From positions 1 to 32,838 of IMG/VR virus record IMGVR_UViG_3300031851_000094: DNA of 32,838 bases; one strand, 5' to 3'. Positions 382 to 27,576 of the stretch are shown here, one piece after another. The position numbers and the translations under genes were made by a program. Each line of letters begins with the position of its first letter. Position 1 is the first letter of the stretch. This DNA comes from a virus. Below the pieces are notes generated by a model. It saw only the letters and a list, made by a program, of their open reading frames with translations. It had not been told where the DNA came from and searched no databases.

Positions 382-409
382 TTGACTATAATATATTATT
401 TGTTATAGT
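382..409 (+). promoter_or_regulatory. Sigma70-type promoter for the GC-rich gene
   Basis: -35 TTGACT (382-387), 16-base spacer, -10 TATAGT (404-409). The ATG at 417 begins only 7 bases after the -10 box, so transcription should start at or next to the start codon. A second -10-like TATAAT at 387-392 overlaps it but lacks a good -35. Confidence 0.6.
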
Positions 410-416
410 TCTGTTG

Positions 417-650
417 ATGTCTGATACTACCTCTACTAGATACTATGTTGTTCAATGCCTATCTCATGCCTGTCCCTATGGGGGAACCCTAAATCTGGGG
501 TTCGGGCTTTCGCCTGACGACGCTTGGGAAGATGCGATGGGTCCGCACTGGCGGGAGTCGAAGCTTCGGAAACGCAGGTGGTGCAACGAGGTCGATGCCG
601 AGTTCTACCACTCTCGCGGTGAGGCTGGCTGGACCATTCACAAAGATTAA
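417..650 (+). CDS. Small GC-rich hypothetical protein (moron-like)
   Basis: 77 residues from ATG at 417. A TTG three bases earlier is less likely because it sits closer to the promoter. The protein is rich in Trp, Arg, Cys and His, with HACPYGG near the N-terminus and SPDDAWEDAMGPHW in the middle. I do not recognise a family. The DNA is visibly far richer in G and C than its neighbours and uses different codons, suggesting recent acquisition. It has its own promoter just upstream and a strong intrinsic terminator directly after, so it is a self-contained unit. Such units in phages are often expressed from a prophage and may alter the host, but no function can be read from the sequence. Confidence 0.65.
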   Translation: MSDTTSTRYYVVQCLSHACPYGGTLNLGFGLSPDDAWEDAMGPHWRESKLRKRRWCNEVDAEFYHSRGEAGWTIHKD

Positions 651-661
651 TTAATATCAGC

Positions 662-682
662 AAGCCCCTTCGGGGGCTTTTT
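662..682 (+). terminator. Intrinsic terminator after the GC-rich gene
   Basis: Stem AAGCCCC (662-668), loop TTCG, stem GGGGCTT (673-679), followed by a T-run. It lies 11 bases after the stop codon of the 417-650 gene. This is a textbook rho-independent terminator with a stable tetraloop. Confidence 0.85.
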
Positions 683-695
683 ATTTGTTTTGGTG

Positions 696-710
696 CTATA
701 TGTTTATTTG
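696..710. repeat. 15-base direct repeat, copy 1
   Basis: CTATATGTTTATTTG, identical to 1014-1028. Both copies are followed by related sequence (CAATTCT or TAAGTTCT, then an AAAAGTGGG-like run). Read on the minus strand it contains TATAG, which could serve as part of a -10 box. Confidence 0.6.
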
Positions 711-814
711 CAATTCTATAAAAAAGTGGGCATTTTGAGCCACCTTATTATTTGCGAAAATATCTGGCAAACTTGCACTTTATTATTTGCAAGAATATCC
801 TACAACCTTGGGGC

Positions 815-1003
815 TTATTTGTTTTTATTTTTTTTAGCTTGCTCCTTCTTTATTTTATCGTAGAATTTTCCTTTCTTTGAGCTATCAACCATGAAGTCTC
901 CAAAGGGCTGCTTATTATTAAATCCAAATATTTCTCTTAACCTCTCTGTTTGTTCAGGATCAAGGTTTACATCGAATTTATTTTTATTGTCATCTTGTTG
1001 CAT
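815..1003 (-). CDS. Small charged hypothetical protein
   Basis: 62 residues, beginning MQQDDNKNKFDVNLDPEQ and ending in a lysine-rich tail (KKEQAKKNKNK). No membrane segment or known domain is seen. The start lies in TAATACAATG, the same ten bases found at the starts of the genes at 8972 and 9389, which supports it. A -10-like TATAGT lies 9 bases before the ATG, inside the second copy of the 15-base direct repeat. It is isolated between non-coding stretches and reads leftward. Function unknown. Confidence 0.5.
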   Translation of the reverse strand: MQQDDNKNKFDVNLDPEQTERLREIFGFNNKQPFGDFMVDSSKKGKFYDKIKKEQAKKNKNK

Positions 1004-1013
1004 TGTATTAGTA

Positions 1014-1028
1014 CTATATGTTTATTTG
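1014..1028. repeat. 15-base direct repeat, copy 2
   Basis: CTATATGTTTATTTG, identical to 696-710. It sits just upstream of the leftward gene starting at 1003, where its minus-strand TATAG falls at the -10 position. This suggests a promoter or operator role, though no matching -35 is seen. Confidence 0.55.
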
Positions 1029-1193
1029 TAAGTTCTGGGAAAAGTGGGGGGTTTGCGCTTATTTGTTTGGCATAATAAAAACGGGCCAAAGCTAGCTTTT
1101 ATTTTGTTTTATTTGTTATAATAGGCTAAAAGGGCGCTTTATTTGGTTTTTTTTAGAAAAATAGGGCTGCTGTTTGTGTCTGGCTAGGGCTAG

Positions 1194-1469
1194 ATGTTAC
1201 TAATTATAAAAAAATATTATAAGCTGGGCTTATTTTATAAAATTTTGTTGACTCAGGGGTTATTTGGGTTGCTTTTGTTTGTTTTTATTAGCTATTTCGG
1301 GGCAAAATACACTAAGCTTACCATTATTTATTATTTAGAGCAACAGCCACTATCCTATTATCCATTCTTATATCTACAAGCATCTAATGAATCCCTTATT
1401 CTATCTTGTTTTCTTATTATGTTTCTACTATGTACTACTCTATATATTATATCAAGGAGTATTGTATAA
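1194..1469 (+). CDS. Possible small membrane protein
   Basis: 91 residues with a basic start (IIKKYYK) and two hydrophobic stretches, about residues 15-36 and 68-88, giving a possible two-helix membrane protein. The ATG is preceded by AGGG at a plausible distance. Caution: AT-rich non-coding DNA often translates as Phe, Leu and Ile, so a hydrophobic frame is weak evidence. No family recognised. It is convergent with the HNH gene ending at 1518. Confidence 0.35.
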   Translation: MLLIIKKYYKLGLFYKILLTQGLFGLLLFVFISYFGAKYTKLTIIYYLEQQPLSYYPFLYLQASNESLILSCFLIMFLLCTTLYIISRSIV

Positions 1470-1517
1470 AAAGGAATTAAAATTCAGTAATAAATAAGAA
1501 TATTTAATATTGATAAT

Positions 1518-2264
1518 TTATTGTAAATTATAGGTATCAGATATGCTAAGGTTGTGGTGGTTGGAGTTTAGATAAGCAGTCTCATTGATGATTTCATCTG
1601 CCAAAACGAGGTGATCAGAGAAGTGATCTCTAATACCTGACTTTAATGTTTCATCATATAAAAAAGCAAACTCTCTTTGTATTTGATGAGATTCGTCTTC
1701 AGAATATACTCTATGGTATTTTGTGACTTTACCTGAGCCTCCGACTAGAGGTATCTTTCTTTTAGCAAAGGAGCATAATACAACTATCCCAACATGATCT
1801 TCCCTCCTCTGTACTTTCTTCGAAACACCCTTGTATATACAAGTACTATTTTTATTTGGCCCAGAGTTTAAATTCTGTTCTACTTTCGTAGAGAACCTTA
1901 AATTGCTTATTTTATTATTATGAGGATTTCTATCTATATGATCCACAGAAATGTTTAGATTAACACCTTCCTTCGCTTTTTCAGTCAGTTGGCGACCTGA
2001 TTTAATAAACCTAGACAAAGGTGTGTGACTCATCAAGTCAGGGAATGTTTCACTCAAGACTTTGTGAATGACGAGGGACTCTTTACTTGAATTTACGTAC
2101 AAACGAACTAGCTGCGAACAATTTTTGAAGTTATTAGCCTTTAAATATATTTTATTTTTCAAGCTATACACCTGACCATTTGTATTCACAATGTAATTTT
2201 TGTTCTCATAGCCATTCCAAATCAGAGTCCTATGTTCTAAAGAATTTATTATATCTTCATGCAT
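1518..2264 (-). CDS. HNH homing-type endonuclease with NUMOD4-like N-terminus
   Basis: 248 residues. Residues 12-35 (a WNGYENKNYIVNTNGQVYSL-type segment) resemble the NUMOD4 DNA-binding module, and residues about 107-131 hold the HNH core (VDHIDRNPHNNKISNLR, with D108, H109, H115 and N117). Such enzymes cut DNA to spread their own gene or to exclude rival phage sequences. The C-terminal 100 residues show no domain I know. Its start overlaps the upstream HNH gene by 8 bases, so the two are cotranscribed at the end of a long leftward operon. I see no intron or intein around it, so it appears free-standing. The family call is firm; the target is unknown. Confidence 0.85.
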   Translation of the reverse strand: MHEDIINSLEHRTLIWNGYENKNYIVNTNGQVYSLKNKIYLKANNFKNCSQLVRLYVNSSKESLVIHKVLSETFPDLMSHTPLSRFIKSGRQLTEKAKEGVNLNISVDHIDRNPHNNKISNLRFSTKVEQNLNSGPNKNSTCIYKGVSKKVQRREDHVGIVVLCSFAKRKIPLVGGSGKVTKYHRVYSEDESHQIQREFAFLYDETLKSGIRDHFSDHLVLADEIINETAYLNSNHHNLSISDTYNLQ

Positions 2265-2868
2265 CCCAGTTAAATCTCTCTATTTTATCCTCTAAATACT
2301 CTTTGCCCCATTCTAACATCTCTGGGGTAAGTTTGCATTTATCATTGTGATCATTCCTATGTTTACCGTAGAATCTATGCTCTGCTGCTATACGAACCGC
2401 TACAGCTTCTTCAAAATTATCAAAAGTACCGAGGTGTTTGATTTTGTAATTATCACACACTTGAGCTTGCCATTTTGACTTTAATTTGTGCCAAGTAACC
2501 CCAGTAACACCAGAGCTATTATTGCTTGGTCGCTTACTATTCCGTGAATTTTCTTTCTTGGTAACCAATCTAAGGTTTGAAAATTTATTATTGTGACCAT
2601 CTCCATCTATATGGTCAACATACATTTCTTTTGGGTCCACCCCAGTGTGAAGAAAGTAACATACTCTGTGAGCAGGATAATTTAGCCATCTGAAAATGAT
2701 ATGTGTGTAGAACTTCCCTTTGCAACCCGTGACTTGATCTTTTTTTATCCTTTGCCCTCTATCAACTTTATTGGTTAAAACTCCTGTCTCTGGGTTATAA
2801 TCGATAAAATCTCCTATATCTTCGGGGATTAGCTTCGGTTTGAATTGATCACTCTTTTTCGCTCCCAT
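2257..2868 (-). CDS. HNH endonuclease with AP2 DNA-binding domain
   Basis: 203 residues. HNH core at about 84-103 (VDHIDGDGHNNKFSNLRL, with D85, H86, H92 and N94), followed at about 118-168 by an AP2-type DNA-binding domain (SGVTGVTWHKLKSKWQAQV through GTFDNFEEAVAVRIAAEHRFYG). HNH-AP2 fusions are common free-standing phage homing endonucleases. The gene lies 10 bases after the DUF2452 gene and overlaps the next HNH gene by 8 bases. The two neighbours share the HNH core but carry different targeting modules, so they are probably not a simple recent duplication. Confidence 0.9.
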   Translation of the reverse strand: MGAKKSDQFKPKLIPEDIGDFIDYNPETGVLTNKVDRGQRIKKDQVTGCKGKFYTHIIFRWLNYPAHRVCYFLHTGVDPKEMYVDHIDGDGHNNKFSNLRLVTKKENSRNSKRPSNNSSGVTGVTWHKLKSKWQAQVCDNYKIKHLGTFDNFEEAVAVRIAAEHRFYGKHRNDHNDKCKLTPEMLEWGKEYLEDKIERFNWDA

Positions 2869-2878
2869 ATCTATTATT

Positions 2879-3235
2879 CTAAATCTTTACCCAAATCTTG
2901 TCAACAGACAATCTAAATGAACCTAAATGTTTTTGACCCCATTCTTCTGGTTTAATCATAGAGAGTGTATTCTTACCCCGAATCTCATATAAGTAGTACA
3001 TCTCTCCTATTATTGGCTCGAAATTAAATTCTGATTCATATACTATCTTATTCCAATTAAACTCTTCTACTACCCTATCATACTCTTGCTTTAGCTCTAT
3101 CAGCTTCTGTTGGGTTACTCTCTCTATCTCACTCATACCTTTAGACTTGAACGAGGTAAGGTCGTTCGGTATTATGCGGGGAGATAGGGTGGAGACAGGG
3201 TACGGAAGGAAAGCTCCTGTATTTAAATCATCCAT
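2879..3235 (-). CDS. DUF2452-type protein
   Basis: 118 residues. The core 'VTQQKLIELKQEYDRVVEEF', then WNKIVYESEFNFEPIIGE, and a C-terminal LGSFRLSVDKIWVKI match my recollection of DUF2452, a family of unknown function found in phages, bacteria and eukaryotes. The middle is probably a helix or coiled coil (about residues 33-62) followed by a beta-rich end. It overlaps the upstream nuclease-like gene by 13 bases, indicating translational coupling. No catalytic motif is visible and the role is unknown. Confidence 0.6.
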   Translation of the reverse strand: MDDLNTGAFLPYPVSTLSPRIIPNDLTSFKSKGMSEIERVTQQKLIELKQEYDRVVEEFNWNKIVYESEFNFEPIIGEMYYLYEIRGKNTLSMIKPEEWGQKHLGSFRLSVDKIWVKI

Positions 3236-3777
3236 GATGTGTCAAAACCCTTCACTTTTGACTTACTCACTTTTTCTATAATCAAATGCTCCATGTCTTC
3301 AGCTTTAATGTATCCAATGATATCTTTATTTCCCGAAGATCCCCTATTATAAAGAACATAAGGTTCCTTTCTTTTCCTAGATTGGATCACATAGCCTTTA
3401 TCGTTTGTGGGTATGTTGCAAAGCTCGCGAGCAAGAGCACAAAGCTCTGATCTTTTAACCACAGAGTAATGATCTTTAGATTCAAAAGCAAAACAATCTG
3501 TTGTTTCAGAATCTACCCAACCCAACCTGCCTTCATTAGTTTGGAACTCTATGCAAATATACTTATCTTGAATAGGCTCATCTCGATGAAACACCTTCAT
3601 TGACTTCACATCACATCTCCCAAACTTCTTAATATGAAAGTCTATATGCTGCTTTTTATTCTCATCTTCTGTAGCTTTCTCATGCTCATAGCCATTCTCC
3701 GTTAATAATTTAGATAATTCATCTTCCTTATCCATTCCTCTCTTCCAACTCTCTGTATTTATAAAATCTCCGTGCAT
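3223..3777 (-). CDS. Putative PD-(D/E)XK-fold nuclease
   Basis: 184 residues. HIDFHIKKFGRCDVKSMK gives an acidic residue (D46) followed ten residues later by D56-V-K58, the arrangement of a PD-(D/E)XK nuclease active site, with a conserved-looking IEF strand after it. The N-terminal helix (KEDELSKLLTENGYEHEKA) also fits that fold. Possible roles are DNA repair, degradation of host DNA or a restriction-type activity. It starts 8 bases after the methyltransferase-like gene and overlaps the DUF2452 gene. The motif is short, so this is a fold-level guess. Confidence 0.5.
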   Translation of the reverse strand: MHGDFINTESWKRGMDKEDELSKLLTENGYEHEKATEDENKKQHIDFHIKKFGRCDVKSMKVFHRDEPIQDKYICIEFQTNEGRLGWVDSETTDCFAFESKDHYSVVKRSELCALARELCNIPTNDKGYVIQSRKRKEPYVLYNRGSSGNKDIIGYIKAEDMEHLIIEKVSKSKVKGFDTSWMI

Positions 3778-3784
3778 TGTTTTA

Positions 3785-4252
3785 TTATTTTATTATTGCG
3801 AAACTTTTCCCCACTCCAGTTAGGAATTCTATATTTTTATTTATAGCCTTAGATGCCTCTAGAGCAAATGAAAACTCCTTAGCTCTATTTGTATCATCCA
3901 TTATAATAGGCACATCTGTATTTAACTTATCCCAATGTTTAGCTAAGCCCCTTCTATTCCCAGAACCTTTCGGCCCATCTACTAGAATTAAATCATACTC
4001 TTCTGGTAGGTTTTTAAATAAAATATCTGCATCGTACCACCCATCTTTGATTGGAGCATGTATGTATTCTGCCTTCTCCGCTAAGCCCAACCACTGAGAA
4101 TCCTGCTCTACAGAATAAACATTGTAATACTTTGTTAACTCTATAGTACCCCTACCACTACCAAATTCTAATATCGTAGAACCTTCTGGTAGATTACTCC
4201 TAATCCAAGAGAATACCCCTTGACAAATTGCCCAACCTCCTAAATTACTCAT
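3785..4252 (-). CDS. Class I SAM-dependent methyltransferase-like protein
   Basis: 155 residues. STILEFGSGRGTIELTKY (residues about 25-42) is a typical motif I for S-adenosylmethionine binding, VEQD follows as the acidic residue that holds the ribose, and LILVDGPKGSGNR (about 88-100) sits where motif IV is expected. It is shorter than most class I methyltransferases and has no obvious substrate domain. It overlaps the upstream glycosyltransferase-like gene by ATGA, so sugar or surface-polymer methylation is a reasonable inference, but the substrate is unknown. Confidence 0.6.
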   Translation of the reverse strand: MSNLGGWAICQGVFSWIRSNLPEGSTILEFGSGRGTIELTKYYNVYSVEQDSQWLGLAEKAEYIHAPIKDGWYDADILFKNLPEEYDLILVDGPKGSGNRRGLAKHWDKLNTDVPIIMDDTNRAKEFSFALEASKAINKNIEFLTGVGKSFAIIK

Positions 4253-4911
4253 TTTATTCTACAAATTTCTTTATGTTTATCGTCTGATTTAACTGGATGA
4301 TAGACCCTACCATCTTTTATATTATCTAGTGGAACCTTAGATTGACTCCAATTAAAATACCTTGTATTAAAACAATTATAAAACCCTTCTGCTCTAAAAT
4401 CTTCCCTAGTTTCAGCTAAAGTCGGTAGAACTATCTCATGAAACAACCCTTTTTTATGTTTTTTAATGAATGATTTCGTTTTCTTGATAAGATTAGGAGA
4501 GACTCTGCAAAAACAATTTAACGATTTCCAACTTTGAGAAGCCCTTATGTCTGTGAATTCTTTGGTCAAAGGCCACCAACACCAACAGACACAGGTTTCA
4601 CGATGAGAAACCCAATTAGAAATCAGATCGATCTCTTTGAATTTAAATTTATTAAAAACAGACTCTATCGTTTCTTTGTTAAATGCCACATCGTCCTCTA
4701 TTATCCAAGTATATTCTTCTTTAAGATCCTTAAAAAGAATATCCCATGCTGTAGTACTATTCCTCCACTTGCCAGTCATACCTGTATGACCCTCTACATC
4801 TCCCTCCACATCCAATATTACCTCAACTTCACCCAAAGGAGAAAGTAATTTCGTTAAATTATCTGTTTTAACACTCTCTTTTCGGGCTAATATTTTAAAA
4901 ACATTCTTCAT
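4249..4911 (-). CDS. Glycosyltransferase-like protein (GT-A type)
   Basis: 220 residues. YTWIIEDDVAF (about 67-77) resembles the acidic metal-binding motif of GT-A glycosyltransferases, like the EDD of family 25-type enzymes. The order of an N-terminal Rossmann-like strand region, the EDD motif and a Trp/Cys-rich acceptor region (CVCWCWWPL, about 108-116) is compatible with that. The C-terminus ends with YHPVKSDDKHKE. It overlaps the dehydrogenase gene before it and the methyltransferase-like gene after it by four bases each, forming a three-gene sugar cassette. Family assignment is by resemblance only. Confidence 0.5.
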   Translation of the reverse strand: MKNVFKILARKESVKTDNLTKLLSPLGEVEVILDVEGDVEGHTGMTGKWRNSTTAWDILFKDLKEEYTWIIEDDVAFNKETIESVFNKFKFKEIDLISNWVSHRETCVCWCWWPLTKEFTDIRASQSWKSLNCFCRVSPNLIKKTKSFIKKHKKGLFHEIVLPTLAETREDFRAEGFYNCFNTRYFNWSQSKVPLDNIKDGRVYHPVKSDDKHKEICRIK

Positions 4912-5663
4912 TTCCTCTTCCTTATACTCTGATTATAAGCTCTAGCACAATCCATTATAGATAAAAAACTACCATATTTCTCAGAAGTCTTTACTAGTGC
5001 AGCACTATCTTTTGGGAAACAATGACCTCCAAATCCTCTCTCTTCAGTGATAAAAGAATGACTATCCCCTATTCTATGATCTGCAGTAGTATGTTCTCTA
5101 ACCTCGTCGTAGTTCACCCCAAGTTTTTGACAAAGATCGTACAACTGGTTAAAAAAAGAAACCTTTAGGGCTAAAAAATTATTTTTTGCATATTTAGTAA
5201 TGATTAAAGCTTCCGCCTCTGACTCTACGCATTTTAAATTATTAAAAACATTAGACCAAAATTTGAAATCATCTCCTCCGATCAGTATAGACTCCATATT
5301 TGAAATATCCTCAGACCAAGACTCTTGTCTCAAGAACTCTGGACTGAAACTGATATTAGAATTTGGGAATTTATTCTTCAACTCCCTCCAACCTTCTAAA
5401 CATATTGTACTTTTAATTAAAATGGGAACGTCTTTCGGACTTTCCTCAATAACACTAAAAACATTCCCCATATAACAAGCACCATCTTCTTGTTGGGGAG
5501 TAGCCACACAAATGACAACTGCGTCTGTATCTCGTGAGATGCCTTTACTATATTCTTGTAAAGCTGGGTCGCTTATTGCTAAACTGTAGTTTTGCCGATT
5601 AGATGAAAGCAACTGCTCATATCCTCGCCCTACAAAACCATATCCTGCGATTGTTATTTTCAT
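4908..5663 (-). CDS. Short UDP-glucose/GDP-mannose dehydrogenase-like protein
   Basis: 251 residues from the ATG at 5663, which overlaps the upstream stop as ATGA; the frame is open to 5711 but that would overlap the previous gene. N-terminal NAD-binding GYGFVG (8-13), SPEFLRQ (108-114), KYAKNNFLALKVSFFN (157-172) and the active-site segment GFGGHCFPKD (210-219, catalytic Cys215) are all present. This family normally oxidises a nucleotide sugar to the uronic acid in two steps. Full-length members are about 390-450 residues. This one stops soon after the catalytic Cys and lacks the C-terminal nucleotide-sugar-binding domain, so its substrate may differ or the missing part may be supplied in trans. 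Confidence 0.85.
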   Translation of the reverse strand: MKITIAGYGFVGRGYEQLLSSNRQNYSLAISDPALQEYSKGISRDTDAVVICVATPQQEDGACYMGNVFSVIEESPKDVPILIKSTICLEGWRELKNKFPNSNISFSPEFLRQESWSEDISNMESILIGGDDFKFWSNVFNNLKCVESEAEALIITKYAKNNFLALKVSFFNQLYDLCQKLGVNYDEVREHTTADHRIGDSHSFITEERGFGGHCFPKDSAALVKTSEKYGSFLSIMDCARAYNQSIRKRK

Positions 5664-5887
5664 TTTTTTTCTGCGTAACCTTGGTATTGGTCTGCTGGAT
5701 CTAAAGTCCAACCTTTAATTCCGAAATCATGCGCTCCTTTCCTAGCACACATTAAATCATGAACTTGTGGAGAATCTATCTTATAACAACAAGAATCAAT
5801 AGGGTTATCCTCTTTATTCAAAATAACAACCATTAATTCTTTATATCCGTTAGGTCCGATGACCCTGCTGTCGTATCTAAAACTCAT
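5660..5887 (-). CDS. Hypothetical protein in sugar operon
   Basis: 75 residues (MSFRYDSRVIGPNGYKELMVV through GIKGWTLDPADQYQGYAEKK). Alternating strands and charged turns suggest a small soluble beta-rich protein, and three Cys residues are present. No family recognised. Start and stop both overlap the neighbours by ATGA, so it is a real member of the leftward operon, between the membrane-anchored protein and the dehydrogenase-like enzyme. Confidence 0.7.
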   Translation of the reverse strand: MSFRYDSRVIGPNGYKELMVVILNKEDNPIDSCCYKIDSPQVHDLMCARKGAHDFGIKGWTLDPADQYQGYAEKK

Positions 5888-6306
5888 TCTGCACTAATTA
5901 CAATATAATCGTGAAAGCTCTTGTAGCTCTCAGCATATTCAACACAAGACTTAAAGTCTCCTGAGTGATCCACATAAGAAGAATCAATAACAAAGTACTT
6001 GCCCTCTGGGATTGGATATGGTTCAGCTCCTCTCGCCAAATGAGTCGAAGAGATTCTCCAACCTTGACCATCACTCTTCACTACTGTTTTAAATTTTAAA
6101 GTGTCAGCAGGATGAGCATCTTCTTCAAATGTTTTGAGCATTTTAGTAAGCTGCCATTTAGTTAGAAATACATGAGCATTCACCTTATCTGGAGGAACAA
6201 CCTTGACAGTCTCTTTCACTTGTACTTTTGGTTCTTTATAACCATGCCAAGCAGCTACACCCCATAGAGGCAAACAAACAGACGCGAATAATAATATTTT
6301 TTTCAT
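5884..6306 (-). CDS. Membrane-anchored or secreted hypothetical protein
   Basis: 140 residues. The N-terminus (MKKILLFASVCLPLWGVAAWHG) has a basic start and a hydrophobic core of about 17 residues, typical of a signal peptide or single anchor, so the rest should be periplasmic. The mature part carries WRISSTHLARGAEPYPIPEGKYF and a DHSGDFKSC segment. No family recognised. It lies between a run of tiny membrane proteins and the sugar genes in the same operon, consistent with a role at the cell envelope. Confidence 0.7.
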   Translation of the reverse strand: MKKILLFASVCLPLWGVAAWHGYKEPKVQVKETVKVVPPDKVNAHVFLTKWQLTKMLKTFEEDAHPADTLKFKTVVKSDGQGWRISSTHLARGAEPYPIPEGKYFVIDSSYVDHSGDFKSCVEYAESYKSFHDYIVISAE

Positions 6307-6319
6307 AGTTTCAATTTAA

Positions 6320-6478
6320 TTACCAATGCCTGATAGTATTTGCAATAATAAAACCACATGTTGTGATATGCACAAACCACCAGAAAGTTCGGATTAGAGC
6401 GGCGAGGTCAGCTTCCCTAGGGTTGTCTGACACTCGCTCGCCCATCGTCCTGCACCATATTCTCCACAGTTTCGACAT
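6320..6478 (-). CDS. Tiny single-helix membrane protein
   Basis: 52 residues read directly from the sequence. It begins MSKLWRIWCRTMGERVSDNP, followed by READLAALIRTFWW and a C-terminal hydrophobic helix (about 33-48, FWWFVHITTCGFIIAN) ending IRHW. The basic, Trp-rich N-terminus followed by a single membrane segment suggests an inner-membrane protein with its N-terminus in the cytoplasm. I recall similar short proteins in marine phage genomes, but without a known function. It sits 23 bases after the 55-residue membrane protein and 13 bases before the signal-peptide protein, all leftward. Confidence 0.7.
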   Translation of the reverse strand: MSKLWRIWCRTMGERVSDNPREADLAALIRTFWWFVHITTCGFIIANTIRHW

Positions 6479-6501
6479 GAAGTCAAGCTGCAATTATGGA
6501 T

Positions 6502-6875: not shown

Positions 6876-6878
6876 TTT

Positions 6879-8225: not shown

Positions 8226-8233
8226 GCTAATAC

Positions 8234-8349: not shown

Positions 8350-8351
8350 AT

Positions 8352-19749: not shown

Positions 19750-19750
19750 T

Positions 19751-20895: not shown

Positions 20896-20902
20896 TTAAA
20901 TG

Positions 20903-20930: not shown

Positions 20931-20935
20931 TAAGA

Positions 20936-20973: not shown

Positions 20974-21000
20974 GGAAGTTAAATCAGTATATCAGTAATT

Positions 21001-22071: not shown

Positions 22072-22245
22072 ACTATTTTAATTAGTATCTTTCGCATCAT
22101 CATGATGCCCCTTTTACTATGTTGGGTTTAGATCCCTCGTGGATCTGGTTAATACTGTACCGACTGTTTTATTCCGTACAAGGCTTTTTTTGTACTTTTC
22201 TTCATTCTTTTTCTAAAATCCTTGTTTTATAAGGGCTGTAGGCCC
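22072..22245 (-). promoter_or_regulatory. Structured non-coding region upstream of the DGQHR gene
   Basis: No convincing gene is seen on either strand. Three inverted repeats occur: a perfect GCATCAT-C-ATGATGC (22094-22108), GATCC...GGATC (about 22131-22145) and GTACAA...TTGTAC (about 22186-22205). On the minus strand, TTGTAC-N16-TACAGT is a possible weak promoter that would give a leader of roughly 100 bases, unlike the leaderless units elsewhere. An operator set or RNA leader is possible. Confidence 0.35.
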
Positions 22246-22279
22246 AAAAAAAAGGCGACCTTCATAAGAAAGCCGCCTT
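22246..22279 (-). terminator. Intrinsic terminator of the lysis operon
   Basis: AAGGCG...CGCCTT stem with an inner CTTTC/GAAG pairing, followed on the minus strand by eight T (A-run 22246-22253). It ends the leftward unit that starts at 24659. Confidence 0.8.
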
Positions 22280-22303
22280 GGAAATGTTTTTAAGATACGA
22301 ATT

Positions 22304-22384
22304 CTATAAAATCAATACGCTAGCTTTAGCAATCGCTGCATAACATAAAACAGAAGTAATTATGGAAATGAATAGAACTCGCAT
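22304..22384 (-). CDS. Tiny hydrophobic peptide gene (possible)
   Basis: 26 residues read directly: MRVLFISIITSVLCYAAIAK, then ASVLIL. It is almost wholly hydrophobic, with a basic second residue, like a short membrane peptide. It lies 22 bases after the holin-like gene and before the operon terminator. There is no good ribosome-binding site and the length is marginal, so this is a weak call. Confidence 0.3.
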   Translation of the reverse strand: MRVLFISIITSVLCYAAIAKASVLIL

Positions 22385-22406
22385 GAATCACGAAAGTTTA
22401 ATTAGA

Positions 22407-22598
22407 TTACTTATCTCCCTTTTCCTTGGCTTTGCCGATATTGACACTAAGAAAGTCAATGACCTTGTATACCTTAGCGAGAATCGAACCTTCTTTTGGA
22501 GTAGGAGTAGAAGCTGCAAAAGTACTTGCAGCAGCAACTATAGCTGTAACCCAGTTAAACCAGACTTGACCTTCGACGAATTGTGTAAGAGCTTCCAT
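22407..22598 (-). CDS. Holin-like small membrane protein
   Basis: 63 residues. One hydrophobic segment (about 12-30, VWFNWVTAIVAAASTFAAST) is followed by TPTPKEGSILAKVYKVIDFL and then NIGKAKEKGDK. The TPTP...KVYKVIDFL...N-x-GKAK pattern recurs in small phage and prophage membrane proteins found next to lysozymes. A holin or holin-accessory role is inferred from size, one helix, a charged tail and the endolysin in the same operon. It is not a proven family match. Confidence 0.6.
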   Translation of the reverse strand: MEALTQFVEGQVWFNWVTAIVAAASTFAASTPTPKEGSILAKVYKVIDFLSVNIGKAKEKGDK

Positions 22599-22649
22599 AA
22601 TAAATTTATCTACAAGCTATATTACACAAAGCCACTTTTTAGGGAAATT

Positions 22650-22778
22650 TTAGCGTCCCTGACCTTTATAAGGCTTCTTGTAATTAGTGGCCCCTTTGAT
22701 CTGAGAGGTTTTACTCTTAGCATGAATCCCTTTTCTGCGGATTTTCTTCTTTCTTTCGTAAATTACTGCTTTTTTCAT
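22650..22778 (-). CDS. Tiny basic protein
   Basis: 42 residues read directly: MKKAVIYERKKKIRRKGIHA, then KSKTSQIKGATNYKKPYKGQ and GR. Very rich in Lys and Arg. I recall similar short proteins (RKK-x-RRKG-x-HAKSKTS) in marine phage genomes, which supports it. Its ATG follows the MazG stop codon directly (TAAATG). The high charge suggests nucleic-acid binding or a virion-core protein, but nothing more can be said. Confidence 0.75.
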   Translation of the reverse strand: MKKAVIYERKKKIRRKGIHAKSKTSQIKGATNYKKPYKGQGR

Positions 22779-23213
22779 TTAATTATCCTTAACAAATTGA
22801 CCATTAACCATCTTACCAGTACGCTTTTTGATTACATCATAAGCAGATTGCAGGCAATCCACTGTATCCATATCAACCATCTTAGCTAATAAAATAATAG
22901 TTACCAACATATCACCAATACCATCTTTAGCTTCTGCTAAGGCATCTTCTTCGAGATCAAGGGTATCAGGATCATCCGTTAGTAATTTCTCACTCAGAAT
23001 CTCTTGATCAGTTAGTGAAGCTAGTTTTTGCAATGCTTCCTTGGTCTCATCTAATTCTTCTTGAGTCTTGTCAAGTTGGCGGAGTGGGGTTGATTTAGCA
23101 AAGATGCCTTTATCTTCCCCCCATTGTAGCACTAATGCGCTTAGTTCTTCGTAGTTCATAGGTTTTTTCTCTCTTGCTACCATTTTAGCAAAGTGTTTTT
23201 CAAAAGACCTCAT
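22779..23213 (-). CDS. MazG-like nucleotide pyrophosphohydrolase
   Basis: 144 residues. MNYEELSALVLQWGEDKGIF, then LRQLDKTQEELDETKEAL, contains the first E-E-x-x-E cluster (about 52-56), and EEDALAEAKDGIGDMLVTII (about 93-112) holds the second acidic motif (E-x-K-D-x-I-G-D). This is the metal-binding layout of MazG-type NTP pyrophosphohydrolases, which hydrolyse (d)NTPs to the monophosphate or lower (p)ppGpp. It overlaps the upstream gene by ATGA. In phages, mazG is thought to tune nucleotide pools or the stringent signal. Confidence 0.85.
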   Translation of the reverse strand: MRSFEKHFAKMVAREKKPMNYEELSALVLQWGEDKGIFAKSTPLRQLDKTQEELDETKEALQKLASLTDQEILSEKLLTDDPDTLDLEEDALAEAKDGIGDMLVTIILLAKMVDMDTVDCLQSAYDVIKKRTGKMVNGQFVKDN

Positions 23214-23491
23214 AATTGCACCATCTTAGGGGCTATTTCTTCGATCTCTTCGCACAACCTTAATATCTCTGAAGTATGCATGTCAAGAGCTTTTCTCCTC
23301 AATTTGAACATTTCGTTGTAAAACTTCTTATATTCAGCATCTTGGTAGATATAATCCTGATCATCTATTTTTAAAATATAATCAGAATAGGTCTCATATA
23401 GAGTAGGGTCTATGCACTTCTCTACAGGATCATAATCACTACTCCTTATAACATAATCAAAAATATCATGCCTACTAACATTAATGTTCAT
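23210..23491 (-). CDS. Hypothetical protein next to MazG
   Basis: 93 residues from the ATG at 23491, chosen because GGAGAG precedes it by five bases, the best ribosome-binding site in the window; an upstream in-frame ATG at 23509 is less likely. MNINVSRHDIFDYVIRSSDY, DPVEKCIDPTLYETYSDYIL and a helical C-terminus (LDMHTSEILRLCEEIEEIAP). Not recognised. Its stop overlaps the MazG start. Confidence 0.65.
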   Translation of the reverse strand: MNINVSRHDIFDYVIRSSDYDPVEKCIDPTLYETYSDYILKIDDQDYIYQDAEYKKFYNEMFKLRRKALDMHTSEILRLCEEIEEIAPKMVQL

Positions 23492-23523
23492 TATCTCTCC
23501 ACTCATCATCTCAAAGGTAACGA

Positions 23524-23548
23524 ACCCACCATATTAAATATAGTGGGT
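23524..23548. promoter_or_regulatory. 25-base near-perfect palindrome
   Basis: ACCCAC at 23524-23529 pairs with GTGGGT at 23543-23548, and the AT-rich middle pairs except at the centre and two offset bases. As RNA it forms an 11-bp stem with a 3-base loop. No T-run follows on either strand, so it is not a standard terminator. TTGACG lies just upstream on the minus strand (about 23549-23556), so it may be an operator over a weak promoter for the 23491 gene. Confidence 0.5.
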
Positions 23549-23568
23549 CCGTCAATTACTTACTTTAT

Positions 23569-24456
23569 CTATGAACAAGAAGCCACTAAATCTGCCTCTT
23601 TATCTCTTCGCCTAAGAAGACCGTCTAAACCTTTACCCGCCCAAATCCTTTTCATTTTTCGGATCTCTTCTGCGATTACTAAATAATTTTTAGTAGGGAC
23701 AAGCTCACGAATACGAGCCATTTCCGCACGGCGGGAACCTCTTACAGAGCTACCACGATTAAACACCAAGCTAACCAAAGCCCCAAAAGCATCTGGGTGA
23801 AGTTCGTCAGCTTGAGGAAAAGCTCTCAGGGTCATTTTAATAAAACGTGGTACTGTGTTGATTTTAAATACATTTAAAGCCGCATCCCAAGGCACTTCAA
23901 TATCTTTTACCGAATATACTTTGGAATTAGCTGAGCTACCCTTGAAACCCAAACATTTCTGTAAACGCTTGAAATCTGAATCATTAATTTTGCCAGCCCA
24001 ATCGTCTTGGAACTGACTTGAAGTATTGTAGCCTAAATCATAACCAATACCTATTGTTACTCCACTAGCACCCTTCGGCCAGCATGGACGTTTTAAGTAT
24101 CGGTTATAGTAACCCTCTCCACCTCCAACCTCGTAATCTAAAATTAACTTCAGAGCCTTGGGGGAAAGAAGCTCTTCTGTATTCTCTTCAGATTCGTGTT
24201 GGCAGGTGGAAGGCGTTACAAAATCCTCTTCAACCAATAAGGTTTTAATAGTTTTCCAAGTAATCGGGCCATCAATGCCGTCATCTTCAACTTGAAGAAT
24301 CCGCTGCACATACTGGATCAACTCCTTTTCGTCTTTATCTTTCAACAAGCCAGACACAATAGCTGACCATGTTTTTGTACCATCAACTCCATCTACAGTT
24401 AAACCTAACTCAGACTGGATTTCTTTGACGATATGACTTTTACCAGAAAACCTCAT
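23569..24456 (-). CDS. Endolysin: two peptidoglycan-binding repeats plus lysozyme domain
   Basis: 295 residues. Two PG_binding_1-type repeats lie at about 8-38 and 48-75, with VDGVDGTKTWSAI and DDGIDGPITWKTI as matching cores. The catalytic part (about 97-295) has LILDYEVGGGEGYYNRYLKR (E109), GVTIGIGYDLGYN (T134, D140) and a C-terminal RIWAGKGLDGLLRRRDKEAD, a layout like T4-type or pesticin-like lysozymes that cleave the glycan chain. No signal peptide, so export would need a holin, and a holin-like gene follows in the same operon. N-terminal binding domains are typical of phages of Gram-negative hosts. Confidence 0.85.
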   Translation of the reverse strand: MRFSGKSHIVKEIQSELGLTVDGVDGTKTWSAIVSGLLKDKDEKELIQYVQRILQVEDDGIDGPITWKTIKTLLVEEDFVTPSTCQHESEENTEELLSPKALKLILDYEVGGGEGYYNRYLKRPCWPKGASGVTIGIGYDLGYNTSSQFQDDWAGKINDSDFKRLQKCLGFKGSSANSKVYSVKDIEVPWDAALNVFKINTVPRFIKMTLRAFPQADELHPDAFGALVSLVFNRGSSVRGSRRAEMARIRELVPTKNYLVIAEEIRKMKRIWAGKGLDGLLRRRDKEADLVASCS

Positions 24457-24464
24457 TGCCTAAT

Positions 24465-24659
24465 TTATTCAGCAGTTTCAGCCTCAGTCTCTTCGCCTTC
24501 TGGCTTAGGGAGTTGAGCTTGCGCTTGCTCGCGAATCTTAGTCGCCAAAAAAGAGGCGGCTTCTGCGACTTGCAAACCTTGGGACTTAACTGCAACGTCG
24601 ATCAGTTGGAGAAGGACATTAGCTTCGTTTTCTTGTAGTGTTAATTTTACTTCGTTCAT
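24465..24659 (-). CDS. Small helical protein, first in lysis operon
   Basis: 64 residues: MNEVKLTLQENEANVLLQLI, then DVAVKSQGLQVAEAASFLAT and a Gln/Glu/Pro-rich tail (PKPEGEETEAETAE). The N-terminal half matches a pattern I recall in small phage proteins: a strand with a helix of Leu and Val every third or fourth residue. No known role. It ends 8 bases before the endolysin start and opens the operon under a promoter 9 bases upstream. Confidence 0.65.
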   Translation of the reverse strand: MNEVKLTLQENEANVLLQLIDVAVKSQGLQVAEAASFLATKIREQAQAQLPKPEGEETEAETAE

Positions 24660-24668
24660 AAGTACCTA

Positions 24669-24697
24669 ATTATAAACAGAAGCAAAAAGAAATTCAA
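24669..24697 (-). promoter_or_regulatory. Sigma70-type promoter of the lysis operon
   Basis: -35 TTGAAT (24692-24697), 17-base spacer, perfect -10 TATAAT (24669-24674), then 9 bases to the ATG at 24659. It lies between the LamG-like gene end and the first operon gene. Confidence 0.7.
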
Positions 24698-24704
24698 CAA
24701 CTTA

Positions 24705-25412
24705 TCATTGGAATCTTGATTTTGTTGCGTTGTAGTTTTGAGTCACCTCTGCCGCTGTTAATACTTTTTTATAAATTCTAATACAGCCAATCCCGCCTAC
24801 CATAGACCAACCAGCATCCCAGTTCCCCACATAAAATCTTCTTGCAGAGGAAGGATGCGATACTGTCGAAGTTTGTTGGAGATTATTATCTATATAAACT
24901 TTATGCATATTTGAAGCAATATTATTATCATGAGTCATTACAACATTATACCATCTATTCATCTCTATAGTGTAACTACTTAAACCAGTGCCATATATTT
25001 TATTACCTGTAGAATGTTGGCCTCTAAATGCTAAATAATGGTTCCAGTAATAATTCCATATACCATCATAGTAAGTTCCTCCAGAAGTCGCCCATGTTCC
25101 ATAACCTGTTCTCATGAACCATGCGTCAACTGAATAACCATCTACTGTATTAAAATCAATGTCATAAGAGCCAAGGGTTGAGTTTGTAAGCTGGGCATAT
25201 GTATTACTATCAGCACCAAAGCCAAAATAATCTTGACTCTGTGATGGAACTGTCGTTGCGTCATTAATAAAAACTCTATTAGTAGAAGAGCCTAATAAAT
25301 CCATATTATAATCAGCACCAGCTGAAACAAGAGAAGCTCTTTCAGTAGCCTGAGAATCAATTACTCCAAACAATTCATCTGTTACAATATCTGGATTTGC
25401 ACTAGCACTCAT
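24705..25412 (-). CDS. LamG/concanavalin-like surface protein 1
   Basis: 235 residues. The central part (YSVDAWFMRTGYGTWATSGG, RWYNVVMTHDNNIASNMHKV, YIDNNLQQTS) has the pattern of a LamG/concanavalin jelly-roll domain: a W-F strand, the RWYNVVMTHD strand, and V-Y-I-D-N. It ends GGIGCIRIYKKVLTAAEVTQ, then NYNATKSRFQ, a tail shared with the two neighbours. Likely a sugar- or receptor-binding virion protein attached to the tail. It lacks the conserved N-terminal block (SGSGTTWTDRSGNGYN) of the other two copies, so it is the most divergent. Confidence 0.7.
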   Translation of the reverse strand: MSASANPDIVTDELFGVIDSQATERASLVSAGADYNMDLLGSSTNRVFINDATTVPSQSQDYFGFGADSNTYAQLTNSTLGSYDIDFNTVDGYSVDAWFMRTGYGTWATSGGTYYDGIWNYYWNHYLAFRGQHSTGNKIYGTGLSSYTIEMNRWYNVVMTHDNNIASNMHKVYIDNNLQQTSTVSHPSSARRFYVGNWDAGWSMVGGIGCIRIYKKVLTAAEVTQNYNATKSRFQ

Positions 25413-25555
25413 ACTTCTGTTAAATTTAATGTGTTAATAAATTCTATAGCCTCATCATAAGTATCATAGTTGTTTCTATACTCTACTGAATCTTCATCAT
25501 AATAAATAACTTCGAACCCAGAATCTGTTTCATTCATTTCTTTTAAGCAATTCAT
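25409..25555 (-). CDS. 48-residue acidic protein between LamG genes
   Basis: 48 residues read directly: MNCLKEMNETDSGFEVIYYD, then EDSVEYRNNYDTYDEAIEFI and NTLNLTEV. Start and stop each overlap a neighbour by ATGA (25552-25555 and 25409-25412), so it is translationally coupled on both sides and almost certainly real. Acidic, with a strand-strand-helix layout. Not recognised. It may be an assembly helper or small partner of the LamG-like proteins, which is inferred only from position. Confidence 0.75.
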   Translation of the reverse strand: MNCLKEMNETDSGFEVIYYDEDSVEYRNNYDTYDEAIEFINTLNLTEV

Positions 25556-26265
25556 AGTCCGAATCTTCCTTTCGTTGCGTTGTAGTTTTGGAGGGCCTCT
25601 GCTGCTGATAATCTTTTAGTATAAATTTTAATTGCAGCGATTTTACCCAGCCATTCACCCACTGCGCCACAGTCAGAAAACTTCCCTATAGTTAATTTAC
25701 CCCCACTACCGCCACTCGCATTACCTGTCCAAGTCTGATTAGATATACCATTTACGTACATATCATAAGTCCAGTTGTTCGCGCTATTTTTAATTCTAGT
25801 TACATTTATATTATACCAATTATCTTGGCTATATGTACTAGATGAAGTAAAAGAAGGGTTACCATTACCCCCACCACCTGCAATCAAACCAAATTTACCA
25901 TTAGCCCTACCAAATTCTAAAGCGAAATCATATATAGAACAACCCCCTGTTGTATTCATAGTCATTATAGGTCTTCCATAAGTAGCTAAAACAAAATTAG
26001 GGTTAACCCAAGCGTCAAGAGTAAAGTCATCTTGTGTAAAATCTACATCAAAATTTGTTGTAACGTGATCATCTACACCATCAAAATCAATACTACCACC
26101 ATTTGCAGAATCAAAAGTAGGTCCATTTGTTAGAGTACCATTATAGCCATTACCACTCCTGTCAGTCCAAGTCGTTCCACTACCCGAATACGACTTCTTG
26201 TCTGCTGCGTCTACGCAGAAGACAAGTCCATCTGTTATTATTTTTGGTGAATATGATGTAGCCAT
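25552..26265 (-). CDS. LamG/concanavalin-like surface protein 2
   Basis: 237 residues. The N-terminal block CVDAADKKSYSGSGTTW, then DRSGNGYNGTLTNGPTFDSA and GGSIDFDGVDDHV, leads into the LamG core (FTLDAWVNPNF, WYNINVTRIKNSANNWTYDM, YVNGISNQTW, KLTIGKFSD). The C-terminal tail is IAAIKIYTKRLSAAEALQNY, then NATKGRFGL. This domain, common in phage tail-fibre accessory proteins, binds carbohydrates. It is a paralogue of the next gene; their first 65 residues are nearly identical, and the DNA is also similar there, indicating recent duplication. Confidence 0.8.
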   Translation of the reverse strand: MATSYSPKIITDGLVFCVDAADKKSYSGSGTTWTDRSGNGYNGTLTNGPTFDSANGGSIDFDGVDDHVTTNFDVDFTQDDFTLDAWVNPNFVLATYGRPIMTMNTTGGCSIYDFALEFGRANGKFGLIAGGGGNGNPSFTSSSTYSQDNWYNINVTRIKNSANNWTYDMYVNGISNQTWTGNASGGSGGKLTIGKFSDCGAVGEWLGKIAAIKIYTKRLSAAEALQNYNATKGRFGL

Positions 26266-26267
26266 AA

Positions 26268-26966
26268 TTATGAGAATCTACCTTTTTGAGCGTTATAGTT
26301 TTGGAGGACTTCTGAGGCTGTAAAGTGTTTGTTTTTTGATATAAACACATTTGCTATACTAGCATTCATCACATAGCCACTACCATCTGCAGATGCTCCC
26401 ACTCTTGTTGGTGTGGTGAGGTTTGTGTAACTCGACAAAGCATAGGTCTTTTTGAGAACTCCATCCACATATGTTCTCACATTTGTGCCATCCCATGTTG
26501 TTATTACATGATGCCACACCCCTACGTTTGCAACCACATCTGTTAAACCAGCAGACCAACCTATACCACTCTCACGAGCACCTATAGTACCGACTATCTT
26601 ATTGGTATCTGTTTGAAGCCCAAACCAGTAAGACGAGTTTCCGATACTGTTATCTGTCGAATGATGTAATGCCGTCTCATAATTAGCTCCGTTTCCATTT
26701 CGGTTGAACCAACCACCAACAGTTAACGATGTTGGATTAGCTATTATCACATCGGTAATAGTTGCATAATCATTACTGCCATCGAAATCAATACTACCAC
26801 CATTTGCAGAGTTGAAAGTCGGACCATTATTTAATGTGGCATTATAGCCATTCCCACTCCTGTCACTCCACGTTGTCCCACTCCCCGAATACGACTTACG
26901 ATCCCCTGCATCTAAGCAGAGAACTAAACCATCAGTAACTATTTTTGGTGAGTGGGTTAATGCCAT
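26268..26966 (-). CDS. LamG/concanavalin-like surface protein 3
   Basis: 232 residues. N-terminal block CLDAGDRKSYSGSGTTW, then DRSGNGYNATLNNGPTFNSA and GGSIDFDGSNDYA, matches copy 2, then a more diverged core (LTVGGWFNRNGNGANYETAL, VWHHVITTWDGTNVRTYVDG, VLKKTYALSS) and the tail SKNKHFTASEVLQNYNAQKG, RFS. LamG fold, likely sugar binding. Together with copies 1 and 2 it forms a set of receptor-type proteins beside the tail fibre; variation in the cores would change what they bind. Confidence 0.8.
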   Translation of the reverse strand: MALTHSPKIVTDGLVLCLDAGDRKSYSGSGTTWSDRSGNGYNATLNNGPTFNSANGGSIDFDGSNDYATITDVIIANPTSLTVGGWFNRNGNGANYETALHHSTDNSIGNSSYWFGLQTDTNKIVGTIGARESGIGWSAGLTDVVANVGVWHHVITTWDGTNVRTYVDGVLKKTYALSSYTNLTTPTRVGASADGSGYVMNASIANVFISKNKHFTASEVLQNYNAQKGRFS

Positions 26967-26969
26967 AAT

Positions 26970-27224
26970 CTATTCTTCCATTTGACCTGTAGGAGTCCAC
27001 GCTTCTTCAGAAAGAACCTCAAGGATCTGACTGTGAGAGTATGGTCCTTCAGTATCTGTCAAATCAGAAACAAAAGATGGTGTTTCACCTTCCCATTTAA
27101 CAAACGATTTGGTTTCATCTACTGATAAACGTAGCGTTTCCGTTGAGGTTTCCAATACGTTAGTAAAGTCAACCGAATCGACTTCCGACATATTGAAAAT
27201 CAAGTAATTTCTATTCTCAAACAT
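26970..27224 (-). CDS. Tail-fibre-associated hypothetical protein
   Basis: 84 residues (MFENRNYLIFNMSEVDSVDF, SVDETKSFVKWEGETPSFVS, ending LSEEAWTPTGQMEE). Beta-strand-rich, then a helical acidic end. I recall similar small proteins after tail-fibre genes in marine phages but no established role; tail-fibre assembly is possible. It lies 15 bases after the preceding gene and 3 bases before the LamG copy 3 start. Confidence 0.6.
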   Translation of the reverse strand: MFENRNYLIFNMSEVDSVDFTNVLETSTETLRLSVDETKSFVKWEGETPSFVSDLTDTEGPYSHSQILEVLSEEAWTPTGQMEE

Positions 27225-27239
27225 GATTTAAATGGTTTT

Positions 27240-27542
27240 TTATTCAGCCTGTTTGGCATCATAGTAAGCTTCAATAGCTGGAACAGCATCAAAGATTGCT
27301 TCCATAGCAGTAGCAGCCTCTGGTACATTATTAATTACATCCCACAATTTTAATTGCATTCCTTTCGCTAAAGTCCTATCTGGATCTTCATCTGTATCTG
27401 TATCATAAGGAACTAATTGGATGAATAAATATCCTTTGGAAGTGTTCTTCGCGTCAATAGTCATTTGAGAAATCCACGTATGTGGAAGCGTCTTTTCTGA
27501 CTTTGCTGGTATTACCAGTGGGGTATCTTTTATAATTGGCAT
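27240..27542 (-). CDS. Tail-fibre-associated hypothetical protein
   Basis: 100 residues (MPIIKDTPLVIPAKSEKTLP, HTWISQMTIDAKNTSKGYLF, IQLVPYDTDTDEDPDRTLAK), with a C-terminal Ala-rich helix (AMEAIFDAVPAIEAYYDAKQ). Not recognised. The first gene of the leftward unit that carries the LamG genes. Its ATG lies 5 bases after a perfect -10 box, and the -35 overlaps the stop of the tail-fibre gene. Confidence 0.6.
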   Translation of the reverse strand: MPIIKDTPLVIPAKSEKTLPHTWISQMTIDAKNTSKGYLFIQLVPYDTDTDEDPDRTLAKGMQLKLWDVINNVPEAATAMEAIFDAVPAIEAYYDAKQAE

Positions 27543-27547
27543 GATAT

Positions 27548-27576
27548 ATTATAGTTTGTTTTGAAAAAAATATCAA
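27548..27576 (-). promoter_or_regulatory. Sigma70-type promoter overlapping the tail-fibre stop codon
   Basis: -35 TTGATA (27571-27576), 17-base spacer, perfect -10 TATAAT (27548-27553), then 5 bases to the ATG at 27542. The -35 box overlaps the TGA stop (27573-27575) of the giant fibre gene, so it is embedded in the coding end. Confidence 0.7.

Follow-up and report, generated by a model that had tools for sequence, protein, structure and literature searches.

Start-adjacent promoter motifs of two classes predict leaderless operon-first mRNAs in a phage lineage with Shine-Dalgarno sites near chance

We analysed the promoters of the IMG/VR virus record IMGVR_UViG_3300031851_000094, taken whole (32,838 bases, hereafter the window), together with those of related phage records. 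The sequences suggest that this lineage probably expresses many operon-first genes from promoters of two classes fused to the start codon, a design that probably goes with a shared host group. Class E would be a host sigma70-type promoter, TTGA(C/T)N-16/17-TATAAT, whose commonest gap between the -10 box and the start, 6 nucleotides (nt), would make the A of ATG position +1. The motif of class L, GTGTAA, has its first G as a rule 14-16 nt ahead of ATG and is probably recognised by a phage-encoded sigma factor with a sigma2 and a sigma4-like part. RNA polymerase would start at, or within about 3 nt of, AUG or GUG, and internal cistrons would presumably initiate by coupling or re-initiation. The simplest cause would be a common host group that translates without Shine-Dalgarno (SD) sequences and accepts leaderless mRNAs.

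The 52 window gene starts, hand-placed from the list of open reading frames (ORFs), were scored at every gap of 0-79 nt upstream as matches out of 12 to TTGACA-16/17/18-TATAAT. Consensus scoring was used throughout, and outside the window the gene calls were automatic and ATG-only. The nine TTGAxx promoters that an earlier note on this DNA had claimed were all found, with gaps of exactly 7, 8, 6, 6, 6, 6, 7, 9 and 5 nt; eight of them match the consensus at 10-11/12 and the site of 18030 at 9/12. Two sites had been overlooked, that of 2868 on the minus strand (11/12) and that of 11272 on the plus strand (9/12). The class E sites, with one exceptional pair of starts, are the following.

382-409, plus strand: promoter TTGACT-16-TATAGT, gap 7 to ATG 417
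2904-2876, minus strand: promoter TTGACA-17-TAGAAT, gap 7 to ATG 2868, an HNH-endonuclease-like gene (overlooked earlier)
8262-8234, minus strand: promoter TTGATA-17-TAGAAT, gap 8 to ATG 8225
9652-9625, minus strand: promoter TTGACC-16-TAGAAT, gap 6 to ATG 9618
10653-10626, minus strand: promoter TTGACC-16-TATTAT, gap 6 to ATG 10619, a RuvB/clamp-loader-like ATPase
10989-11017, plus strand: promoter TTGACA-17-TAAAAT, gap 6 to ATG 11024
11235-11262, plus strand: promoter TTGACT-16-TATCCT, gap 9 to ATG 11272, a pyrimidine-dimer glycosylase-like gene (overlooked earlier)
17995-18023, plus strand: promoter TTGATT-17-TAAAAT, gap 6 to GTG 18030
20930-20903, minus strand: promoter TTGACT-16-TATAAT, gap 7 to ATG 20895, opening a cupin/kinase/cytidylyltransferase sugar unit
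24697-24669, minus strand: promoter TTGAAT-17-TATAAT, gap 9 to ATG 24659, opening a unit with a lysozyme-like gene
27576-27548, minus strand: promoter TTGATA-17-TATAAT, gap 5 to ATG 27542, opening a tail-region unit
17600-17648, exception: divergent starts 17600 (minus) and 17648 (plus), whose TATAAT boxes end 19 and 20 nt upstream, short-leadered

Alternative longer frames begin at 414 (TTG), 8243 (TTG) and 10625 (GTG); the first-noted starts of 8225 and 10619 agree with the beginnings of the ortholog proteins. The genes at 22071 and 25412 open gene stretches, and promoter scoring of their upstreams gave no recognised site.

A -10 box about 5-9 nt upstream of the start is commoner than chance. 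Sites of at least 10/12 numbered 9 at gaps 5-9 and 4 across the other 75 gaps (11 and 14 at the threshold of at least 9/12). The genome-wide scan of the short gap suggested by the earlier note thus places it far above chance: in 1,000 dinucleotide shuffles of the 52 upstreams the mean at gaps 5-9 was 0.13 with a maximum of 2 (0.78 and 4 at 9/12 or more). In a separate control based on an automatic gene call, 9/56 gene-start ATGs and 0/1,097 other ATGs had a site of at least 10/12 at gaps 5-9 (Fisher p = 8e-13), a value that is descriptive only, as are all such values for related, non-independent sequences. A general promoter scan gave 85 sites in 1-20000 (63.6 expected) and 30 in 17000-32838 (47.1 expected); the signal lies in the position of the sites and not in their number.

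IMG/VR relatives were reached through ThyX (window 16203-16829) and the RuvB-like protein. In G001-G006, sites of at least 10/12 numbered 6, 10, 4, 3, 4 and 5 at gaps 5-9 and 7, 5, 4, 2, 0 and 2 across the 75 remaining gaps, a per-gap enrichment ratio of 13-60 in 6/6 relatives' records examined, 60 being a floor-based value. Ortholog sets were built from distinct upstreams of at least 45 nt whose protein starts aligned to within 4 residues and which had at least half of the query covered; upstreams failing this were dropped, and in a few rows the anchor sits 3 nt within the ATG. L012, a contig identical to the window, belongs to the sets for 8225, 9618, 10619, 11024 and 11272; no orthologs of the 417 gene were found. 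A promoter of at least 9/12 at gap 5-9 is present in 16/16 distinct upstreams of 24659, 11/11 of 20895, 20/23 of 11272, 10/15 of 10619, 10/13 of 11024 (the remaining 3 at gap 10), 5/5 of 8225 (window copy included, gap 6 or 8) and 3/4 of 9618. For 18030 the promoter, its gap and the GTG start are kept in 11/11, and after dereplication the gap of 11272 shifts among 5, 6, 7 and 9, remaining in range. Genes without class E, treated in the same way, gave 0/24 (17600), 0/17 (17648), 0/20 (10967), 1/37 (12460) and 5/20 (13397).

Pooled over gene starts, TTGA with at least 4/6 of the -10 box at gaps 4-10 occurs at 255/2,533 starts, compared with 29, 24 and 42 in equal control ranges; this and the other pooled counts below (logo, GTGTA positions, T-run) are restricted to ATG starts and also draw on loci from beyond the lineage. 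The logo of 153 dereplicated sites shows sigma70-type hexamers with 16-18 spacing, in which TTGA, A2 and T6 were preselected and the other positions are informative. Stretches of 40-50 kb from eight reference phages (HTVC008M, P-SSM2, HMO-2011, lambda, T4, phiCbK, phi38:1 and DSS3phi2) held no site of at least 10/12 at gaps 5-9, phi38:1 having 2 at 9/12. Thus the claim of a promoter design that predicts leaderless mRNAs in early, lysis, sugar and tail units stands as a non-chance pattern that recurs in relatives. Could the motifs nevertheless arise as a side effect of start regions that are rich in AT and fold weakly, in an SD-free genome whose transcripts begin further upstream? Such starts are described for genes without SD in some phyla in passages of PMC5397173. 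AT-richness is, however, exceeded by a bipartite TTGA-16/17-TATAAT with fixed spacing, the sites are nearly missing from the shuffles and missing at the other ATGs, and most ortholog sets retain -35, spacer and gap, which makes this explanation very improbable.

The second class, which the earlier note's promoter account had missed, emerged from the upstreams without class E. There, GTGTA was the most enriched 5-mer (33 seen, 4.1 expected) and GTGTAA was seen 26 times (2.1 expected). Among 127 dereplicated upstreams with GTGTA 13-19 nt before ATG, the first G lies at -14 (47), -15 (43), -16 (14), -17 (7), -18 (7) and -19 (9). The window copies and one adjoining hairpin are the following.

10967-10982, minus strand: late-type GTGTAA, whose first G precedes ATG 10967 by 15 nt
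12401-12431: terminator-like hairpin preceding the late-type motif of 12460
12441-12460, plus strand: late-type GTGTATATAAT, whose first G precedes ATG 12460 by 19 nt, with a TATAAT at gap 8
13383-13397, plus strand: late-type GTGTAATAT, whose first G precedes ATG 13397 by 14 nt
14599-14614, minus strand: late-type GTGTAA, whose first G precedes ATG 14599 by 15 nt; this is a gene that overlaps the preceding gene

In the 148-kb relative G009 (L212-L219; 147,748 bases), GTGTAA precedes 35099 and 37142, two genes following the terminase-like gene, and also 44779 and 47873 (2,018 amino acids, tape-measure-like by length). The portal assignment in G009 is by position, and the G002 counterpart is without a family match. 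The virion region at 30-62 kb, with 26/248 genes, holds 4/11 class L genes and 3/40 class E genes, a comparison in which several class E genes are counted twice through a repeat. A 4.7-kb direct repeat in G009 (18608-23281 and 142979-147652, 99.6% identical) duplicates several genes with class E promoters and may be an assembly artefact or a real duplication.

The placement of both classes was counted in eight records with 764 genes, class E being taken here at 9/12 or more and gap 4-10. One or the other class marks 38/110 strand-opening genes, 36/143 genes with more than 60 nt upstream, 48/88 with 31-60 nt, 35/84 with 11-30 nt, 12/118 with 1-10 nt and 4/221 that overlap the preceding gene. 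Put together, E or L is carried by 157/425 genes that are either strand-opening or separated from their predecessor by more than 10 nt, versus 16/339 abutting genes, i.e. those that overlap or sit within 10 nt of the preceding same-strand gene. The share peaks at 31-60 nt, roughly the space that a single promoter fused to a start takes up.

These counts bear on the idea that GTGTAA is a translation element, a non-SD ribosome signal, and not a promoter. The fixed distance to ATG and the failure to find a -35 element would suit such a signal, as would the window copy at 14599, which lies inside the preceding gene. With E-scored genes excluded, however, GTGTAA is rare at abutting genes (4/339 vs 46/425), and a T-run precedes it in 35/101 upstreams vs 7/101 in a control stretch. 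It is also uneven in its distribution, with 89/949 genes in ThyX-bearing loci L015-L056, 2/360 in L057-L076, 0/211 in SD-rich loci and 0/461 in the reference phages. We regard a translation element as improbable.

A candidate reader of class L is encoded in the relatives. Sigma70_r2 (PF04542) exceeds the Pfam cut-off in 5/10 records and in 2/3 proteins tested; 80 capsid loci contained 41 distinct sigma proteins, two of them partial, and in G002 the terminase gene is found about 2 kb, and the capsid gene 8 kb, downstream of the sigma gene. The structure predicted from a 22-protein alignment (mean predicted local distance difference test score, pLDDT, 72) consists of a sigma2 part, a low-confidence stretch and a region-4-like C-terminus. 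Its top structural neighbours are sigma factors, namely 6jcy_F (Z 9.0, 20.9 A over 133 residues, the two domains being placed differently) and 5uxx_A (Z 8.6, 2.5 A over 80 residues), and the C-terminal helices align to region 4, e.g. of 6ono_B (Z 7.7, 1.9 A over 65 residues); Z values of 9.0 at most are modest for a helical protein and leave room for folds absent from the neighbour list. A Foldseek search with the model gave no match at E <= 0.001, and the 4 matches of the sigma profile in a PDB sequence search (E 0.08-0.93) were taken as chance. From the above we infer that GTGTAA is the promoter of the lineage sigma, probably late, in a position that would also give leaderless messages. In the sigma at L114:1295-1972 and its relatives, four conserved Cys (C84, C87, C96 and C108), which may form a zinc site, separate the sigma2 part from the sigma4-like one.

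The predicted leaderless starts share their lack of an SD with nearly the whole of these genomes. In seven records, 4-nt SD cores (SD4) precede 69/523 genes (13%), the same as in shuffles (13%), and 5-nt cores 6% vs 4%; in G009 the 4-mers stand at 0.09 vs 0.10. Genes with a class E site of at least 9/12 have a 5-nt core in 1/86 and a 4-nt core in 5/86 cases, and a slight excess is seen at genes without class E that overlap or closely follow their predecessor (22% vs 16% for 4-nt, 10% vs 5% for 5-nt cores). Clear SD enrichment was seen in seven of the eight reference phages, but not in phi38:1 of Cellulophaga.

The ThyX-bearing loci serve as natural controls. Of 80 loci, the 71 of at least 8 kb were analysed and 9 shorter ones dropped. 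In those closest in ThyX, L015-L056, class E (at least 10/12) precedes 73/949 genes at an SD4 of 0.13 (expected 0.14). In L057-L076, without the SD-rich one, it precedes 39/360 genes at an SD4 of 0.10 (expected 0.12), and in the remaining 10 loci 22/298 genes, with class L at 12 and an SD4 of 0.15 (expected 0.12). Eight SD-rich loci (SD4 >= 0.38), a strict set chosen post hoc with the values already seen, have class E at 3/211 genes and an SD4 of 0.65 (expected 0.19). Some of the L057-L076 loci are T4-like with a gp43-type polymerase, the polymerase of the lineage being DnaE-type. Thirteen more records that do not belong to the strict SD-rich set yielded no lineage sigma or capsid, but these records are fragments, and two of them, L084 and L085, do carry class L. 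Class E and the missing SD thus occur together across only partly related phages, which points to the host, and class L follows the lineage; a common host group is the simplest cause, since loci without the lineage motif share both traits. In the T4-like L061, L057 and L060, a TTTACA-type -35 and start-adjacent TATAAT-like boxes stand before the DNA polymerase gene.

The view that such consistent use is peculiar to one phage is therefore not borne out, since the design recurs throughout the lineage and also in further ThyX-bearing loci, of which some are T4-like and have a different polymerase type. The earlier note had further proposed that leaderless starts keep translation going when host initiation factors or ribosomes are altered. 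The study of phage phiYS40 reportedly suggested a similar strategy against altered translation factors. According to PMC9031893, leaderless mRNAs bind for the most part to 70S ribosomes and initiation factor 3 acts on them differently, which would favour a strategy of this kind. SD sequences, however, are at or near chance over the whole gene set, internal genes included bar the slight excess, as expected with an SD-independent host, and the other ThyX loci without the lineage late motif share the design; both points fit a host trait better. A phage bS21 was absent in 10/10 records searched, mostly fragments. We consider the strategy unlikely, and the start-fused design is probably due to a host group that these phages have in common, not to a means of coping with altered ribosomes. 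A further reading, in which a phage lineage, widespread and uncultured, has two transcription programmes (host-sigma early and phage-sigma late, with timing judged from gene content) that are both leaderless in a nearly SD-free genome, and in which phages of the same host share the first, is put forward tentatively, at slightly less than even chances.

No match to named phages was obtained in a near-identity search with window bases 1-25000, or with the 12460 protein and a relative's major capsid protein; matches of the RuvB-like protein and the DnaE-type polymerase to named phages were all below 60% identity, with no informative host, and the best matches of the terminase stretch are at about 25% identity. 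The nearest named record to the T4-like polymerase of L061, Phage C48C1 (48% identity, no host listed), is SD-rich in the 35 kb examined (SD4 0.49 vs 0.20) and was rejected as a host clue. A host among the Flavobacteriaceae, a group without SD usage, is suggested by a single metagenome-assembled genome (MAG), G012, in which two different capsid relatives occur (contigs C42 and C20). Its contig C66 is also without SD enrichment and has a mild class E excess (gaps 5-9 vs the other 75, 1 vs 4 sites at 10/12 or more and 7 vs 33 at 9/12 or more). However, C66 has the Bacteroidetes-type TAnnTTTG box near starts, which is not enriched in G009 (the box was counted in G009, in a single MAG contig and in three phage loci), the phage promoters are sigma70-like, the capsid contigs may be mis-binned, and among 299 sampled genomes of the family the match is confined to that MAG. 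Leaderless mRNAs amount to 5.5% in F. psychrophilum, according to passages of PMC9723704. The MAG, which fits the missing SD and not the promoters, was not accepted as a host link, and a Flavobacteriaceae host is unlikely.

Several observations weigh against start-fused promoters of two classes in a shared host group. The leaderless 5' ends are predictions from the position of the -10 box. Some genes are leadered, such as 17600 and 17648, the gap of 27542 is kept in 2/9 ortholog upstreams, and the promoter of 2868 is kept in 0/3. Neither class is present at 268/425 (63%) genes with promoter room, some of which are probably spurious ORFs or genes with weaker promoters; 18 of the 268 have a site of at least 10/12 at gap 11-39. 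Concerning class L, a fixed -35 element was sought upstream of GTGTAA and none was seen, the sigma gene was not found in the window, which is a fragment, sigma region 4 is below the cut-off in two proteins (E 0.0085 and 0.011) and was not found in a third, and the link between sigma and GTGTAA is one of association. A small SD excess exists in 2/7 records (G004, 0.23 vs 0.14-0.16; G002, 0.14 vs 0.12). To the post hoc choice of the strict SD-rich set is added that a loose split (SD4 excess above 0.08) gives no contrast, with class E at 39/485 'SD-rich' vs 98/1,333 'SD-poor' genes. Finally, five T4-like loci (107 genes) have 11 sites at gaps 15-34 vs 13 at gaps 5-9.

Other features of the window were recorded. 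A tRNA-Met (8273-8349, minus strand), of the elongator type by its G1-C72 pair as judged by eye, lies immediately upstream of the 8225 promoter, and a tRNA-Leu(TAA) lies at 15162-15245 (minus strand); an Rfam scan at the gathering threshold found these two tRNAs and nothing else. The 8225 protein (6879-8225, minus strand) has a tandem TSAEYTSAETSAE-type repeat near its N-terminus, and the G002 protein at 16461-17807 has a similar start with a different repeat (VGVGSSS). The sugar unit at 18974-20895 (minus strand) encodes a cupin, a PfkB-type kinase, a cytidylyltransferase and a phosphatase-like protein, and resembles a pathway for heptose (split HldE type) or a similar nucleotide sugar. At 24705-26966 (minus strand), three consecutive similar-looking proteins share a SPKIVTDGL..YSGSGTTW-type start, clearest in two; we take them to be perhaps lectin-like (LamG) tail proteins.

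If the reading of two leaderless programmes is true, it predicts unrecognised bacteria with ordinary sigma70 promoters in which leaderless initiation, GUG included, is the main mode at operon heads. Were 5' ends to confirm it, this would be a phage lineage that largely dispenses with SD, with host-type and phage-sigma promoters both fused to starts, and the question of how leaderless initiation carries a whole infection would become testable. SD at chance together with start-adjacent promoters would offer a sequence-only marker for finding leaderless-translating hosts, and such promoters would help start calling in these phages. Leaderless mRNAs, ORF-adjacent -10 boxes and a phage reported to have many leaderless transcripts (phiYS40) are already known. 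In a literature search we met no phage lineage combining SD near chance with two start-fused promoter classes, and do not claim its absence from print.

Among known systems, the cI mRNA of lambda made from PRM is a leaderless phage message; unlike here, it is a single gene amid SD use, and lambda has no site of at least 10/12 at gap 5-9 (70 genes) and an SD4 of 0.44 vs 0.25. T4 late transcription uses the gp55 sigma, which is not known to have a region 4, and a -10-like box TATAAATA without a recognisable -35. The present lineage resembles it in a phage sigma and a -10-like box without recognisable -35, but the motif is GTGTAA and not TATAAATA, the sigma is modelled with a region-4-like part, and T4 keeps SD (SD4 0.56 vs 0.16 in a 40-kb stretch). 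The modelled sigma2 and sigma4-like parts recall extracytoplasmic function (ECF)-type sigma factors, unlike which a low-confidence, Cys-bearing stretch separates them and no fixed -35 element was found.

The nearest precedent is Thermus phage phiYS40, which according to the 2007 work of Sevostyanova et al. reportedly has host-type promoters and a second, -10-only class, with most middle and late transcripts leaderless and the host sigmaA said to be used throughout. In a 40-kb stretch of it, 3/4 sites of at least 10/12 lie at gaps 5-9, and since its middle and late transcripts are reported to be mostly leaderless, the gap measure detects such a case. It differs in keeping SD (SD4 0.47 vs 0.25 expected), which is at or near chance here, and both promoter classes here abut starts, unlike in phiYS40. 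In Deinococcus-Thermus, passages of PMC12340547 describe a TANNNT a few bp before the ORF as a promoter giving leaderless mRNA, at about 30% of ORFs on average; in these cellular '-10-motif' genes the -10 alone suffices, and genes with a ribosome-binding site coexist. Here, in contrast, class E has a full -35/-10, SD is near chance and the genome is that of a virus. Leaderless GUG is poor in E. coli and better in some actinobacteria, according to passages of PMC9031893, and the conservation of GUG at 18030 hints at a tolerant host.

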